NCBI RefSeq assembly: GCF_016587355.1
Contig: NZ_BNJF01000004.1
Coordinates: 248,001 to 312,000 of the forward strand
Direction: 5' to 3'
DNA length: 64,000 nt
DNA from: Ktedonospora formicarum
Lineage (GTDB): Bacteria > Chloroflexota > Ktedonobacteria > Ktedonobacterales > Ktedonobacteraceae
Within the stretch, counting starts at the first letter, position 1. Every line of letters starts with the position of its first letter. The notes beneath the pieces were generated by a model. It made no database searches and was not told the DNA's origin. It worked only from the letters and a program-made list of their open reading frames with translations. Shown here one piece after another: positions 2,392 through 64,000 of the stretch. The position numbers and the translations under genes are program-made.

Positions 2392-3255
2392 TTATAAAAC
2401 AGTTACCTTCGATACATCAGCTCCCATGCCTTTGAGTGCGGCATACGTGAGCTTATCCATCATCGCGCCGTCAAAGTGAATGGATTGTACAGCACGCTTG
2501 CCGCTCGACCAGAGTGACGCAAAGCGGAAAGACACCTGTTTAAGGATCGCGCCCTGAAACGACACATCCTTCAGTGTTGTCTGGTCAAACCTGACACCGA
2601 GAAAGGTCTGCCCATCAAATCGCAGTTCGCGCAGGTCGGAACATGAGAAGTCCACGCCGAGAAAGGTACAGCGCTCAAAGGTGGTTTTTCGCAGGTCGGT
2701 CGCAGTAAATTTGACATCATTCAACTTGACGCCGATGAATTGTGCTCCGTCCAGCCCCGACGCACTGAAGTTGGTGCGAACAAGGATTGATTCGCGGAAG
2801 CTTGTACTCACAAGATCATTTGCGGAAAAGTTACAGTCTGTCAGATTTGCGCGGTCAAAAGTGGCCTCACGTACATCACTGCCTGAAAACGAGCTGCCAG
2901 TCAGGTCTGCGTCCGTAAAGTCCGAGCCCCGCAACGCGCTCCCTTGAAAATTTCCTTTTTGCGCGATCACGCCCACAAAGTCGCTCTTTGGCAAATTGCT
3001 CCCGCTAAAATCTATCAATACCTGCCGCTCCAGCGCGTGGGAGAGGTTAGCAACTTCCCGCGCGATTTGCTCAATGTCGCCGATGCTCTCAATGGTCATG
3101 GTCAAGGCGGTTTCATCATCCTTGCCCTCGGCTTTGAGTTCACGGAAGCGCTCCTGCGCGTTGGAGAGCAGGTCCGTCTTTAATTCGGCGGCGCTTTTGA
3201 CTCCCTCGCAGGGAGCAAACACGTCGTTGATATAGGTGGTCAATTTCTCATTCAT
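2392..3255 (-). CDS. Pentapeptide-repeat protein with N-terminal helical domain
   Basis: A 287-residue protein. Residues 1-75 resemble the short helical domain found in DUF1700/permease-prefix proteins (MNEKLTTYINDVFAPCEGV...). From about residue 80 to 250 it shows A(D/N)Lxx-type pentapeptide repeats such as SDFTDADLTGSSFSGSD, which fold as a right-handed quadrilateral beta-helix. Such proteins often sit between a PadR repressor and an ABC exporter, and remnants of both flank it here. The function is unknown; in related settings it is proposed to act in membrane-stress or drug responses. The start codon ATG at 3255 has AAAGGAAAGG upstream. Confidence 0.75.
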   Translation of the reverse strand: MNEKLTTYINDVFAPCEGVKSAAELKTDLLSNAQERFRELKAEGKDDETALTMTIESIGDIEQIAREVANLSHALERQVLIDFSGSNLPKSDFVGVIAQKGNFQGSALRGSDFTDADLTGSSFSGSDVREATFDRANLTDCNFSANDLVSTSFRESILVRTNFSASGLDGAQFIGVKLNDVKFTATDLRKTTFERCTFLGVDFSCSDLRELRFDGQTFLGVRFDQTTLKDVSFQGAILKQVSFRFASLWSSGKRAVQSIHFDGAMMDKLTYAALKGMGADVSKVTVL

Positions 3256-57052: not shown

Positions 57053-58181
57053 TCAGGCCAACGCCACCAAATTCCTGGCGGCGTTCAAGTCTCGATCCAG
57101 TGTACTTCCGCAATCCATGCAGGCAAAGATCCGATCAGAAAGCCTCAGTTCCTCATTGACCCATCCACAACACGAACAGGTTTTTGAGGAAGGTTCCCAA
57201 CGGGAGGCCAGAACCACCTTGATCCCTGCTTGCTCTGCTTTGTAGAGGATCTGCCGCTTGAACTCATACATCCCCACATCGGCAATCGCTCGGGCTAACC
57301 TGCGGTTCTTGAGCATACCTGCAATGTGTAGATCTTCTAGGACGATCACACGCGGCCTCTCTTGATCGGGCGCGGGTTCTCGCCACGATCTGTGCGGTCG
57401 CTTGGTGCAAGGCGTTCTGGCGAACATGGGCGATACGGGCGTGCATCCGAGCAAGTCGCATGCGTGCTTTCTTGCGATTGGCACTCCCTTTGGGCTTGCG
57501 GCTGTGGCGTCGCGACGTGCGCTTTAACGCCGTGATCTTCTTGCGTAGCGCCTTGAGATTCTCGAAGGTACGTCCATCTGAGAGAGTTGCCAGTCGTTTG
57601 ATTCCCAGATCCACTCCAATGACGTCACCTGTGGCTGGCTGGGGTGCTTTCGCTTGCTCGTGGACACAGATGGAGACAAACCATCTGCCTGCTTGCTCAT
57701 GGATGGTGGCACTGCTGATCTTGCCATTGAGAGGGAAATAGCCGTGCTCTTTGAGTCGGAGCCTTCCCAACCGAGGCAACTGGATGGCATCAGGAAACAC
57801 CCGAATGCTCCCGGTGAAGCGAGCGCCACCGATGGCTTTCTTCCGGCTTTTGTAGCGGGGATAGCCACACTTTCCTTTCCAGGTGCCCTCTTTCTTGAGC
57901 CGGCACTTGCGAAAGAAGTGCTTGAAGGCGGTATCCAGATCGCGCAACCCCTCCTGAAAGGCGCATTTGCTGACCTCGCGCATCCAAGGCTGGGAGGGTT
58001 TGAGGGCATTGATCTCGCGATGCAGATCGATGGCGGTGGGCGTTTTCTGCCCAGCTTTGTAGGCCTCTTGTTTGCGGCGAAGGCCATAATTGTACGCCCA
58101 GCGAGCGGCTCCGGCATGTTTGCGACAAAGTGTCTGTTGCGCGTTATTGAGATCAAGTTCTCCTCGGTAGCCACGTACCAT
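57053..58181 (-). pseudogene. tnpB: TnpB-family nuclease copy 2, frameshifted
   Basis: From ATG 58181 (MVRGYRGELDLNNAQ) the frame covers the N-terminal domain and RuvC-I (GVDLGIKRLATLSDG) to RMHARIAHVRQNALHQATAQIV. At CGCGCCCGATC (about 57372) one extra base changes the frame, and RPRVIVLEDLHIAGML (RuvC-II), the zinc ribbon CSCCG...CMDCG and RuvC-III DRDLNAARNL follow in the new frame. The same extra base occurs in copy 1. Both halves are otherwise intact. Its left end lies inside a TPR gene, which it appears to have cut. Confidence 0.8.
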
Positions 58182-58304
58182 CTTCTGCTCTTCTTCCTCT
58201 GCGATGAATGTAGAACAAATATACCACAAAGTCGCTGCTGTTTCAAGGGAAGGTATGTCCATGTTTGCTCTTTTTTGTCCATATTCTTGAAAACAAATTA
58301 TACC

Positions 58305-58981: not shown

Positions 58982-59527
58982 ATGATAGAAAAATCAACAA
59001 GTCGTTTGCAGGTCCTCTATCTTATGGTCTGCACAGCTCCTCCTGCACAGCAAACCCTCCATGTTGTCATCCCACTTCAAGAAGCGGGATGGGATGTGTG
59101 TGTGCTTGCGACGCCTCAAGCTAGCCGCTAGATTGATCAATCAGCTTTAGAAGATGCAACAGGGTATATTGTGCGAACAGACTATAAATTACCAGGAGAG
59201 GCTGATCCTCTTCCCAAAGCCGATGCTATATTGGTTATGCCTGCCACCTTCAATACGATCAATAAGTGGGCACAAGGTATTGGCGATACGCTGGCCGCAA
59301 ATATCTTGTGTGAAGCCCTTGGGAGAGGGACGCCGCCAATTGTTGCAGTTCCTTGTCTCAAAATGGATCTGGTACGCCATCCAGCCTTCAAGAAAAATCT
59401 TGCGCTTCTCCGTGAGTACGGAATTCATGTCCTGCATGAACCAAAAAAGCCCCCTTCTCCGCTGATGGTTCCTTGGGAGAAAATATTTGAGACACTTTGC
59501 ACTCTCACACCAGACACAGCAGGATGA
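58982..59527 (+). pseudogene. Flavoprotein (PF02441-type), with one in-frame TAG
   Basis: ATG 58982 after AAGGAG. LQVLYLMVCTAPPAQQTLHV and AGWDVCVLATPQASR are the FMN-binding start of the phosphopantothenoylcysteine-decarboxylase/lantibiotic-decarboxylase fold. TAG at 59129 interrupts the frame, which then continues IDQSALEDATGYIVRTDYK, ILVMPATFNTINKWAQGIGD (the PxMNxxM-like segment) and VPCLKMDLVRHPAFKKNL. The full product would be ~181 residues. It is paired with an HTH-TPR regulator directly upstream; the substrate is unknown. A second, shorter remnant lies at 61866. Confidence 0.8.
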
Positions 59528-59621: not shown

Positions 59622-60095
59622 TCTATGCTGCTGTGGGATAGAATTCTCCAGACTGTTGTAGAACATGAAGCACACCTATCACTTCCCGTTTGCTACCAGG
59701 ATTTTGTAAGTTCTAAAGGTGATATATTACATAGACAACTATTTCTTTTCACATTACTATGATCTCGACATGCAAATATTTAATCACACTCTCTATTAGA
59801 GACTCCAAAAGCAGGTTATTCCTGTAGCAAGGTCACTTTAGAGTAGAGTTGCAAAGAAAATTGACATAATCATGTATTGCTCTATTAGGTAGGCTTAATT
59901 TTGGTGACGTAGCTCTCCTTCTGCTTCTAAAGCTCTCATCAGCATTCCTGACATAAAATTGATTTCCATGCGTTCGCGACACTTGTTGCTAGCAGAATTC
60001 TGCTGTTTGAAAAGTCAAAATAGCAGAGTGAGTGCGAACAGAACCCACCTCCGAGAATAAGAAGCGAAGATTCATGAGAAGAGAACGGAAGATAT

Positions 60096-61832
60096 ATGTG
60101 GAAAAACAACAAAACACAAAAGCGTACAACTTATCGTTGCTCTTTCTGCGGTCATAGTCAAGAACATGTGAAGCGCTTGATTGCAGGGCCTGGTGGTGTC
60201 TATATCTGCAATGAATGCATAGACATGAGTCGAAAGATCGTTCTAAAAGAGGAGACAACACATAGTTGCTTCTTCTGTAATAAGGAGCAGAGTCAAGTGA
60301 AGCGTTTGATAGAGGCACCCAATGGCGCCTTTATCTGCAATGAATGTGTCGAGAGATGTCGAGAGATCCTTATAGAGGAGGAGCGAGACTATCACTGCTC
60401 CTTCTGCAACAAGGAACAAGATCAAGTTCTGCGCCTCATAGCCGCGCCCGGAGGAGTATACATTTGTGACGAATGCATCTATCTTTGTCGGGAGATCATT
60501 GACGAGGTGAGAGGAAAAACGCCTCCAGTCGCAAAGCATGAGGATGTGGAACGATTGTCAAAACATGCTCTCTTAATATATGAACAGCAGTTGGGAGCTA
60601 CGCATCCCGACACTGCTTCGGCACTTACAAACTTGGCAATTCTCCACTGGTGCAAGGGGGAGTATGGAGAAGCCGAACCGTTGCTCCAACGTGCCCTCTC
60701 GATTCATGAACAACCATTGGAGTCCCCATATCCTCGTCTAACGATCAGCCTACATCGTCTGGCAGTTCTCTATCAAATACAGAGAAAGTACAAGGAGGCG
60801 GAGCCACTCCTGCAACGTGCGCTCTCCATTACTGAAAAGCAATTGGGAGCCACGCATCTCGATACGATGGAGCGTCTTAATGACTTGGTAGGACTCTACC
60901 GAACACAGCAAAAATATGAAGAAGCGGAGCCACTCCTGCAACGTGCGCTCTCCATTACTGAAAAGCAATTGGGAGCCACGCATCTCGATACCGCTCGTAG
61001 CTTGCATAATCTTGCAGAACTCTACCATGACCAGGAGCGATACAAAGAGGCGGAACCGTTATACTATCGTGCCCTGGCTATTCGTGAGCAGCTATTAGGA
61101 GCCTCGCATCTTGATACGGCGGTCAGCCTCAATAACCTTGCAGAACTCTACTGTGATCAGGAGCGATACAAAGAAGCGGAGCCATTATATCAGCGTGCCC
61201 TGACTATCCGTGAGCAGCTATTAGGGGCTACACATCTCGACACAGCTTGTAGCATCAATAACCTTGCAGAACTTTACCGTGACCAAAAGCAATATGAGGA
61301 GGCAGAACCGCTGCTCCAGCGTGCACTGGCTATTCGTGAGCAACTATTGGGAGCTTCGCATCCTGATACAGCAGATAGCCTCGATAACCTTGCAGAACTC
61401 TACCATGACCAGGAGCGATACAAAGAAGCGGAGCCATTGTATCAGCGTGCTCTCTCGATCTATGAGCAGCAATTGGGGATCACCCATACTGATACCACTC
61501 GCAATATGAATAATTTAGCCCAACTTTACCGTGACCAGAAGCGATACGAGGAAGCAGAGCCACTGCTCCAGCGGACTCTCTTGATTGCTGAGCAGCAATT
61601 GGGAGTTTCGCACCCCGACACAGCGGATCGCTTGAACAATTTAGCTGGACTTTACCATGACCAGAGGCGATACAAGGAGGCAGAACCGTTATACCAGCGT
61701 GCACTCTCAATCTATGAGCAGCAGTTAGAGGGCACAGATCCCATGCCCCAAAAGATGCGCACGAATTATGCGTCCTTACTACAAGCAATGGGGCGTGATG
61801 AGGAAGCAAAGAATTTGGAAGAAGATTCGTGA
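60096..61832 (+). CDS. Triple ClpX-type zinc-finger and TPR protein
   Basis: 578 residues. Three tandem C4 zinc-binding domains of the ClpX N-terminal type: C15/C18/C38/C41, C58/C61/C81/C84 and C101/C104/C124/C127, each with the pattern CSFCxxxxxxVxRLIxxPxG...ICxEC. From ~155 to 565 come about nine 42-residue TPRs of kinesin-light-chain type ([20 protein letters not shown]...[18 protein letters not shown]). No AAA+ ATPase domain and no signal peptide. In ClpX the zinc domain dimerises and binds adaptors and substrates, so this may be an adaptor or scaffold for Clp-type proteolysis. Two repeats share 68 identical bases (60798-60865 and 60924-60991), showing recent expansion. ATG 60096 follows GGAAGATAT. 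Confidence 0.85.
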
Positions 61833-61865: not shown

Positions 61866-62063
61866 TCACCCCTATGAAGAGGAACACTACCTTCCCTACC
61901 GCAAACTGGATTTGGAACGCCATCCAGTCTTCAAGAAGAACATCGCGCAGCTGTGCAATGGCTATGATTCATGTCCTCTAGGGACCATAGCCCTCTCCAG
62001 TTGTAGTTCCGTGGGAGGATGTTTGTGAGACTCCTCTGCTTGATCATAGAGAAACAGCAGGAT
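61866..62063 (+). pseudogene. Second flavoprotein remnant (C-terminal part)
   Basis: LPYRKLDLERHPVFKKNIAQL matches VPCLKMDLVRHPAFKKNLALL of the gene at 58982. In another frame VVPWEDVCETPLLDHRETAG ends at TGA 62063, matching MVPWEKIFETLCTLTPDTAG. The N-terminal two thirds are missing and the frame is broken. Like the other copy it stands tail to tail with dnaE sequence. Confidence 0.65.
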
Positions 62064-62104: not shown

Positions 62105-64000
62105 TCACTCCATCACGTGAACCTCAACCGTGTGCGGGCCAAGAATGGTTTCAAGAGTTGTATGCAATTGCGGAGTATACTTCACGGTATTCTCGCTTGG
62201 GGTCAGGCGTACCTCCCACTCACCACTGGTCACGAGAATGTCGTATTGGTCACGCCCTGGATGGGCCTGGAGACATTGACGAAGTTCCTGTACTTTCATA
62301 ATGTCATTCGAGACAGACACCTCATCGGTTCCACTCCGAACAATGGTGAGCCAGAGGTGATGCCGCTCGCGGTTCATTTCCTCTTCCAGCGCCTGCACGG
62401 GCATGATGCTACTACAGAGCAAGTTGGGCTCGTCATTGCGGATCTGGACCTCTCCTCGTAGGATCACTACCGCCTCTTCCACCCACTGCTCTCCGGTCTC
62501 TTTGTAGATTCTGGGAAAGACTGTCACCGCCATAGCCCCGTACATATCTTCCAGGTGAGCCATGCACATCGGATCCCCTTTCTTCGTGGTGATGCGATGA
62601 ACCTCTTTGAGCATCCCTCCCAGAACAACCTGCTGCTTTTCCAGTTCTGCGGTCACATCCGCAATGGGCTGCACTCCTTGCTCCTGGAAAAGGTCCGTTA
62701 AGTAGGAGAGAGGGTGGCGAGAAAGATAGATCCCGGTCAGTTCTTTTTCCCATTCAAGCAGTTGCTTGCGTGAGATGGACGGTGCGTCATCCGAGAGACG
62801 GAAGGCGAGTGTGGTTGTCGTCTCATCGTCGCCAAAGAGGCTGATGAGCCCGCGCTCTTTCGCGGCGCGCTCGCTCTTGCCGTATTGCATCGCTCGTTCC
62901 ACAGAGGCCAGCAAAACCTGTCGTTGTCCATCGGCGAAGCTATCCAGAGCACCTACTTTGATGAGCGTTTCCAGTGCCCCTTTGGCAAGCAAACGTGCGT
63001 CCACGCGTATGCACACATCAGCCAGTGAGGTAAAGGGGCCACCCTCCTCGCGTGCCGCAAGAAGCGCATCAATGGGACCATTGCCGATGCCTTTGATGGC
63101 AAGCAACCCAAAGCGCACGGCTTCGCCTTCCACAGTAAAGCCCTTGGCGCTCGCGTTAATGTCGGGGCCACGAACCTCGACTCCCAGACGCTTACACTCA
63201 GCGACTGCGCTGGCAATTTTCTTCGCATCGGCGGCTTCCGCTGTCATCGTTGCCGCCATAAACTCGGCGGGATAGTTGGCTTTGAGATAGGCACAATAGA
63301 ACGCAACCACAGCATAACTCGCGGCGTGTGGCTTGTTAAACCCGTAGCCGCCAAAGGGTTCAATGAGCGTAAAGAGTTCTTCGGCACGCTCTGGTCGCAT
63401 CCCATTGTGGATACAGCCCTGGATGAAATCCTGGCGGTAGCCTGCGACTTCCTCCACTTTCTTTTTACTGAGGGCCTTGCGAAATTTGTGCGCCTTGCCC
63501 CAGGAGAAGCCTGCGATATTGACGGCAATAAAAAGCACCTGATCTTGATACACAATGATGCCGTAGGACTCGTCGAGCCAGGTTGAGAGGCGGGGGTCAA
63601 GATACGCTACCTTCTTACGCCCGTGCTTGGCATCAATAAAATCGGGAATACTTTCCATCGGACCCGGACGATAGAGCGCGACCATTGCCGTGAGATCTTC
63701 GATACGGTTGGGGACCAGTTGCCTGACATATTCGCGCATCTTGGCTCCCTCCAACTGGAAGATTCCCGTCGTTTCGCCTGCCGCCAGGAGCGCAAACGCA
63801 TTGGCACGCCGCTTATCCTGCTGTCTGTCGCCAGTCTCATCGAGTGGAATACTTTCCAGGTCGATATCTTCCCCTCGGCTCTGCTTGATGAACTGGATCG
63901 TGGTATCAAGGATGGTCAGGTTGGAAAGCCCCAGAAAATCAAACTTGATCAGCCCCAGTTCTTCTAGATGACGTTGTTCATATTGCGTGATGCGCAACTG
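62105..64000 (-). CDS. dnaE: DNA polymerase III alpha subunit, C-terminal ~630 residues (cut by window edge)
   Basis: The frame is open to the window end. ITQYEQRHLEELGLIKFDFLGL and YRPGPMESIPDFIDAKHGRKK belong to the polymerase palm/fingers region. DESYGIIVYQDQVLFIAVNIAGFSWGKA is the fingers motif. GNGPIDALLAAREEGGPFTSLADVC is the HhH region, and VVLGGMLKEVHRITTKKGDPMCMAHLED the OB fold. The N-terminal PHP domain and catalytic Asp triad lie outside the window. It is the replicative polymerase subunit of DnaE1 or DnaE2/3 type, which cannot be told from this part. It is convergent with the flavoprotein remnant. Confidence 0.95.
   Translation of the reverse strand, partial: QLRITQYEQRHLEELGLIKFDFLGLSNLTILDTTIQFIKQSRGEDIDLESIPLDETGDRQQDKRRANAFALLAAGETTGIFQLEGAKMREYVRQLVPNRIEDLTAMVALYRPGPMESIPDFIDAKHGRKKVAYLDPRLSTWLDESYGIIVYQDQVLFIAVNIAGFSWGKAHKFRKALSKKKVEEVAGYRQDFIQGCIHNGMRPERAEELFTLIEPFGGYGFNKPHAASYAVVAFYCAYLKANYPAEFMAATMTAEAADAKKIASAVAECKRLGVEVRGPDINASAKGFTVEGEAVRFGLLAIKGIGNGPIDALLAAREEGGPFTSLADVCIRVDARLLAKGALETLIKVGALDSFADGQRQVLLASVERAMQYGKSERAAKERGLISLFGDDETTTTLAFRLSDDAPSISRKQLLEWEKELTGIYLSRHPLSYLTDLFQEQGVQPIADVTAELEKQQVVLGGMLKEVHRITTKKGDPMCMAHLEDMYGAMAVTVFPRIYKETGEQWVEEAVVILRGEVQIRNDEPNLLCSSIMPVQALEEEMNRERHHLWLTIVRSGTDEVSVSNDIMKVQELRQCLQAHPGRDQYDILVTSGEWEVRLTPSENTVKYTPQLHTTLETILGPHTVEVHVME

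Follow-up and report, generated by a model that had tools for sequence, protein, structure and literature searches.

Three ClpX-type zinc fingers joined to a kinesin light chain-like TPR array in an ATPase-less protein of Ktedonospora formicarum

We found that one intact open reading frame at positions 60096 to 61832 (+) of the 64-kb stretch of K. formicarum DNA analysed here (the window) encodes a 578-aa protein with three complete ClpX-type zinc fingers, followed by TPRs resembling those of the kinesin light chain (KLC), and with no ATPase. It contains no internal stop. Because the open frame begins only six codons upstream of ATG 60096 (584 aa in all), this ATG was taken as the first start; a weak GGAAG lies ahead of it at 60088 to 60092, and no promoter-like site above chance was found for the gene. 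A Pfam scan of the protein returned PF06689 three times (protein E 3.6e-50) and a dense TPR_12/TPR_10 array, with no match to any AAA family, to NB-ARC or to the SspB profile PF04386. The NCBIfam clpX models aligned with the fingers only, far under their cut-off, so the protein lacks the AAA+ module that marks the ClpX unfoldase. The first-pass annotation, which had described triple ClpX-type fingers ahead of nine TPRs without an ATPase, was therefore right on the architecture. The full-length model reached a mean pLDDT of 85 and a pTM of 0.68.

The fingers are located at 60135 to 60245 (ZF1, aa 14-50; Cys 15, 18, 38 and 41), 60264 to 60374 (ZF2, aa 57-93; Cys 58, 61, 81 and 84) and 60393 to 60503 (ZF3, aa 100-136; Cys 101, 104, 124 and 127), all on the + strand. 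Their PF06689 scores are 69, 67 and 61 bits against a curated cut-off of 27 bits, each has the C-x2-C...C-x2-C pattern, and all twelve Cys noted earlier can be read directly in the translation (12/12). The fingers presumably bind zinc. Compared with the finger of the genome's own ClpX, ZF1 is 73% and ZF3 81% identical, and ZF2 is the most diverged (54%). ZF1 and ZF3 share 59% identity, each being nearer to ClpX fingers, which are also their best neighbours, and ZF2 is the odd copy.

AlphaFold2 modelled the finger array as three separate strand-strand-helix knuckles (mean pLDDT 75), and the placement of one finger relative to another, on which dimerisation would be judged, was not confident (pTM 0.33). 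Foldseek matched the modelled fingers to the solved ClpX zinc-binding domains 2ds5-2ds8, with TMt 0.76-0.85, 52-60% identity and rmsd 1.0-2.2 A, so that the predicted fold is ClpX-like, as had been anticipated. The fingers thus share sequence (54-81% to the own ClpX), the four-Cys pattern and the predicted fold with the N-terminal zinc-binding domain (ZBD) of ClpX (PF06689; 2ds5-2ds8, 1ovx). Unlike ClpX, this protein carries the domain three times per chain, and no AAA+ motor follows. A linker of low model confidence (aa 137-147, 60504 to 60536, +) leads from the fingers to the first TPR helix.

Differences from the own ClpX finger fall mostly at third codon positions (21/30 in ZF1 and 25/34 in ZF3), with pS 0.76 and pN 0.14 for ZF1, and pS 0.99 and pN 0.12 for ZF3. 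Since synonymous change is near saturation and pN is low, the ClpX-likeness of ZF1 and ZF3 was kept. A recent copy of the own clpX was considered as the source of the fingers and discarded, because synonymous sites are near-saturated. At the level of sequence these values are strong, yet not absolute, proof of protein-level constraint on the fingers and for the gene, because the finger ancestors may for some of that time have belonged to ClpX itself and because the TPR unit pairs, in which 800 of 1647 differences are at third positions, share history.

The KLC-type TPR superhelix is a peptide-binding fold. In the present protein it occupies aa 148-578 (60537 to 61829, +), as indicated by Pfam (TPR_12, E 3.9e-131), by the exact 42-aa phase of nine EAEPL units, and by a model in which the superhelix runs unbroken from residue 148 and a C-terminal helix pair is added. 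The nearest solved folds are KLC TPRs (5oj8, KLC1; TMt 0.85, 46% identity), so the array is KLC-type in both repeat length and fold. The claim of near-identical 126-bp repeats did not hold, as the nine units are only 47-84% identical in DNA, and the best pair reaches 88% over 106 nt. This pair (60760 to 60865 and 60886 to 60991, spacing 126 nt) makes up the youngest duplicated stretch (60760 to 60991, +). TRF gave 73% matches at period 126 and 78% at period 252. Accordingly, the recent growth proposed for the array applies to that one pair and not to most units; from their DNA identity, the array seems mostly old, plus one local event of later date. For the TPR half, the nearest proteins are the NB-ARC/XRE-TPR proteins abundant in these genomes, at up to 67% identity. 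These NB-ARC/XRE/TIR-TPR proteins share the KLC-like 42-aa arrays, but there an NB-ARC-type ATPase precedes the TPRs, whereas here the finger array forms the N-terminus.

The architecture did not recur in any of the sets searched. Neither the 47 class genomes nor the 400 phylum genomes yielded a second protein that has three fingers or combines fingers with TPRs. Searches of phages, plasmids and viral contigs, and a pattern scan of GTDB contigs, were likewise negative for both; the GTDB scan relied on one protein with few exact patterns, by which distant forms would be missed. Its two matches (L105 and L106) were ordinary ClpX, and matches in one genome (G022) that looked as if they ran from finger 3 into the TPRs were NB-ARC-TPR proteins without fingers. 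The literature search found no paper on ATPase-less ClpX fingers with TPRs, only one on cyanobacterial sigma factors with zf-C4_ClpX. Searching for zf-C4_ClpX with TPRs and no AAA, as the first-pass annotation had advised, therefore found the combination only here across the class, phylum, GTDB, plasmid, phage and viral sets, and it is apparently unique within what was searched.

The fingers themselves are another matter. The earlier statement that zf-C4_ClpX normally occurs only in ClpX was not borne out: ATPase-less fingers are routine in the class and also occur in the phylum and on viral contigs. The protein is an unusual orphan within a little-described group. The own genome (10.67 Mb, 15 contigs) has five zf-C4_ClpX places, namely the three described here, ClpX (429 aa) and an ATPase-less 216-aa protein. 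Two-finger ATPase-less proteins are present in 7-8 of the 47 class genomes. In two genera, two fingers precede aspartate carbamoyltransferase (PyrB; OTCace domains) (L036:1915-3660, - and L037:1809-3221, -), an arrangement that may connect this pyrimidine enzyme with ClpXP or else serve oligomerisation, and others are short proteins (L038, L040, L041, L043, L054). These two-finger Chloroflexota proteins likewise have tandem ClpX fingers and no AAA, but they differ in having two fingers rather than three, and these are joined to PyrB or to no recognised domain, and in no case to TPRs.

Single fingers occur ahead of a beta-eliminating lyase/aldolase-like enzyme (L052), after MerR (L039), behind a HicB-like domain (L047), and together with zinc-ribbon-like Cys pairs (L042, L044, L045, L050, L051). 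L096:1927-3003 (-) joins two Clp_N domains to two ClpX fingers without an ATPase, that is, the recognition domains of two Clp ATPases in one protein. Cyanobacterial sigma factors carry zf-C4_ClpX as an accessory module (PMC11119718). In one Chloroflexota family, a solo-finger gene lies between clpP and clpX, directly upstream of clpX, at 8/8 loci (L074-L081; the order is also seen at L099 and L100), and its product is a candidate ClpXP cofactor. In family f20, the tandem matches "with a stop inside", which might be taken for a broken fusion, are two separate genes. The ATPase-less fingers as a whole class, above all the clpP-ZF-clpX order, may be the more valuable lead.

About two dozen of the 59 viral-contig loci examined have fingers without AAA, and some of these contigs may be proviral or cellular. 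Single-finger ORFs without AAA, of about 60-145 aa, were seen at L118, L123, L143, L146, L158, L168, L171 and L175, and further ones at L177-L179, L184 and L186-L194; some other viral contigs encode full ClpX. A ClpX-type finger near the C-terminus of a protein with a ParB-like N-terminus, judged by eye, lies around 3001-3132 of viral contig L133. Phage interference with host ClpXP is a possible role of the viral solo fingers.

ClpXP substrate choice is partly set by partners that dock on the zinc domain of ClpX, SspB among them. It has been reported that the ClpX ZBD is the docking site of adaptors, that the isolated ZBD dimerises, and that it inhibits RssB-mediated sigma-S degradation when added in trans (PMC7226468); the ATPase-less ClpC2 sequesters a ClpC1 ligand (PMC10030653). 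Based on these findings we infer that a three-ZBD chain on a client-binding TPR arm may act in trans. The reading we tentatively prefer, rated somewhat short of an even chance, is that the protein is a multivalent mimic of the ClpX finger which, while its TPRs hold a client, works in trans on ClpXP or on partners of ClpXP. As a scaffold, one chain would display three ClpX-type ZBDs while the KLC-like superhelix would grip another protein. Either ZF1 and ZF3 would pair with the ZBDs of ClpX, of which the genome has one, or they would bind ligands of the ClpX ZBD (adaptors, substrates); as a result, the TPR-held client would be brought to ClpXP or partners would be kept away from it. Calling the protein an adaptor or decoy for ClpXP, as was first suggested, is plausible; these two roles differ only in sign and are inseparable by sequence.

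There are partial precedents. SspB and RssB offer a proposed functional analogy, as adaptors that use the ZBD to supply ClpXP with substrates or to hold them back, but the ZBD is their binding site and not their building block, and SspB is absent from this genome. ClpC2, an ATPase-less partial ClpC1 homologue that works in trans, is likewise a Clp recognition domain without a motor (PMC10030653), but its domain is of ClpC rather than ClpX, and it is a single unit without TPRs.

Several results argue for action in trans: ZF1 and ZF3 are ClpX-like, their pS is near saturation with low pN, the models match 2ds5-2ds8, the TPR superhelix is of a peptide-binding type, ATPase-less fingers recur in the class and the phylum, among them the protein with two Clp_N domains and two fingers, and one family has a solo-finger gene flanked by clpP and clpX. 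The published findings on the free ZBD and on ClpC2 point the same way. Such wide occurrence of ATPase-less fingers raises the likelihood of a trans-acting role rather than lowering it. On the other side, no clp gene is among the ORFs of the window, the gene is an orphan across 47 class and 400 phylum genomes, the finger placement has a pTM of 0.33, and SspB was not found in the genome, which hence has no known ZBD partner. Further, the same finger is fused to PyrB and aldolase-like enzymes, where a ClpXP role is not obvious. The latter point makes a ClpX-independent scaffold a close rival, because the finger is also joined to enzymes and regulators that are not known to be connected with ClpXP. 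Its fingers would be dimerisation modules within the protein or between copies, yielding a multivalent TPR scaffold for a signalling complex, in the manner of the NB-ARC-TPR proteins that are numerous in this genome. We regard it as possible but doubtful. Dimerisation of the isolated ZBD (PMC7226468) and the closeness of the TPR array to NB-ARC/XRE-TPR proteins are consistent with it. So are the fusions of the domain, which involve aspartate carbamoyltransferase (with two copies), the aldolase-like enzyme, MerR, and HicB-like and zinc-ribbon proteins as well as cyanobacterial sigma factors (PMC11119718); they would suit a module of general use in oligomerisation or docking. However, the ClpX identity of ZF1 and ZF3 exceeds what pairing alone would seem to need, and pure dimerisation leaves three copies unexplained.

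Inhibition of adaptor-mediated turnover by free ZBD in vitro (PMC7226468), the ClpC2 precedent (PMC10030653) and solo ClpX fingers on viral contigs could also point to an anti-adaptor or substrate decoy, whose fingers would mimic the ClpX docking site and absorb adaptors or ZBD-binding substrates, the TPRs being no more than a carrier or localiser. This seems improbable, given that SspB, a known ligand, is absent from the genome and that a large constrained TPR array would be superfluous. Least credible, and very improbable in our judgement, is a non-functional or short-lived chimera, in which a fragment with ClpX fingers was joined to TPRs within a mobile region undergoing decay. The gene is an orphan, promoter-like sites do not exceed chance, an IS605-type OrfB transposase lies in the flank, and fragments of a flavoprotein (PF02441) lie on both sides, but 578 open codons, the 12/12 kept Cys, the third-position excess in the ZF-ClpX differences (21/30, 25/34) and the TPR units (800/1647), and pN/pS well below 1 argue against decay.

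Extending the preferred trans-acting reading, ATPase-less fingers might be widespread, so far undescribed trans-acting regulators of ClpXP in Chloroflexota and phages, with the triple-finger TPR protein as the most elaborate, a multivalent adaptor that would recruit TPR-bound clients to ClpXP via ZBD hetero-pairing; we consider this broader proposal rather unlikely as it stands. The forms it would embrace are solo, tandem and enzyme-fused fingers and the clpP-ZF-clpX operons. If motor-free ClpX fingers do act in trans, they would offer a modular, evolvable route to rewiring regulated proteolysis, and phages could turn the same device against the ClpXP of their hosts.

The surroundings of the gene are accessory DNA. 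Its simplest history would be that fingers derived from ClpX became fused with a TPR array within a mobile region. The window ends with the C-terminal part of a DNA polymerase III alpha subunit gene (dnaE, 62105 to 64000) beside the finger-TPR gene. Related genomes have several dnaE paralogs, 41-54% identical to the window copy, and dnaE was rejected as a synteny anchor, the relatives being too diverged (best 46-54%) and the paralogs several. The flavoprotein fragments at 59171 to 59524 and 61891 to 61953 (62% identity over 21 aa) suggest insertion or rearrangement in a decayed region. Upstream of the finger gene, the IS605-type OrfB transposase (57053 to 58262, -) seems frameshifted, with homologous-looking sequence (57053 to 57484) in another frame. 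Elsewhere, most genomes of the class encode about one single-finger protein of about 216-290 aa with no function assigned (for example L004:988-1638, -), and that of the own genome adjoins a gene which, by eye, resembles a ribosome hibernation factor.
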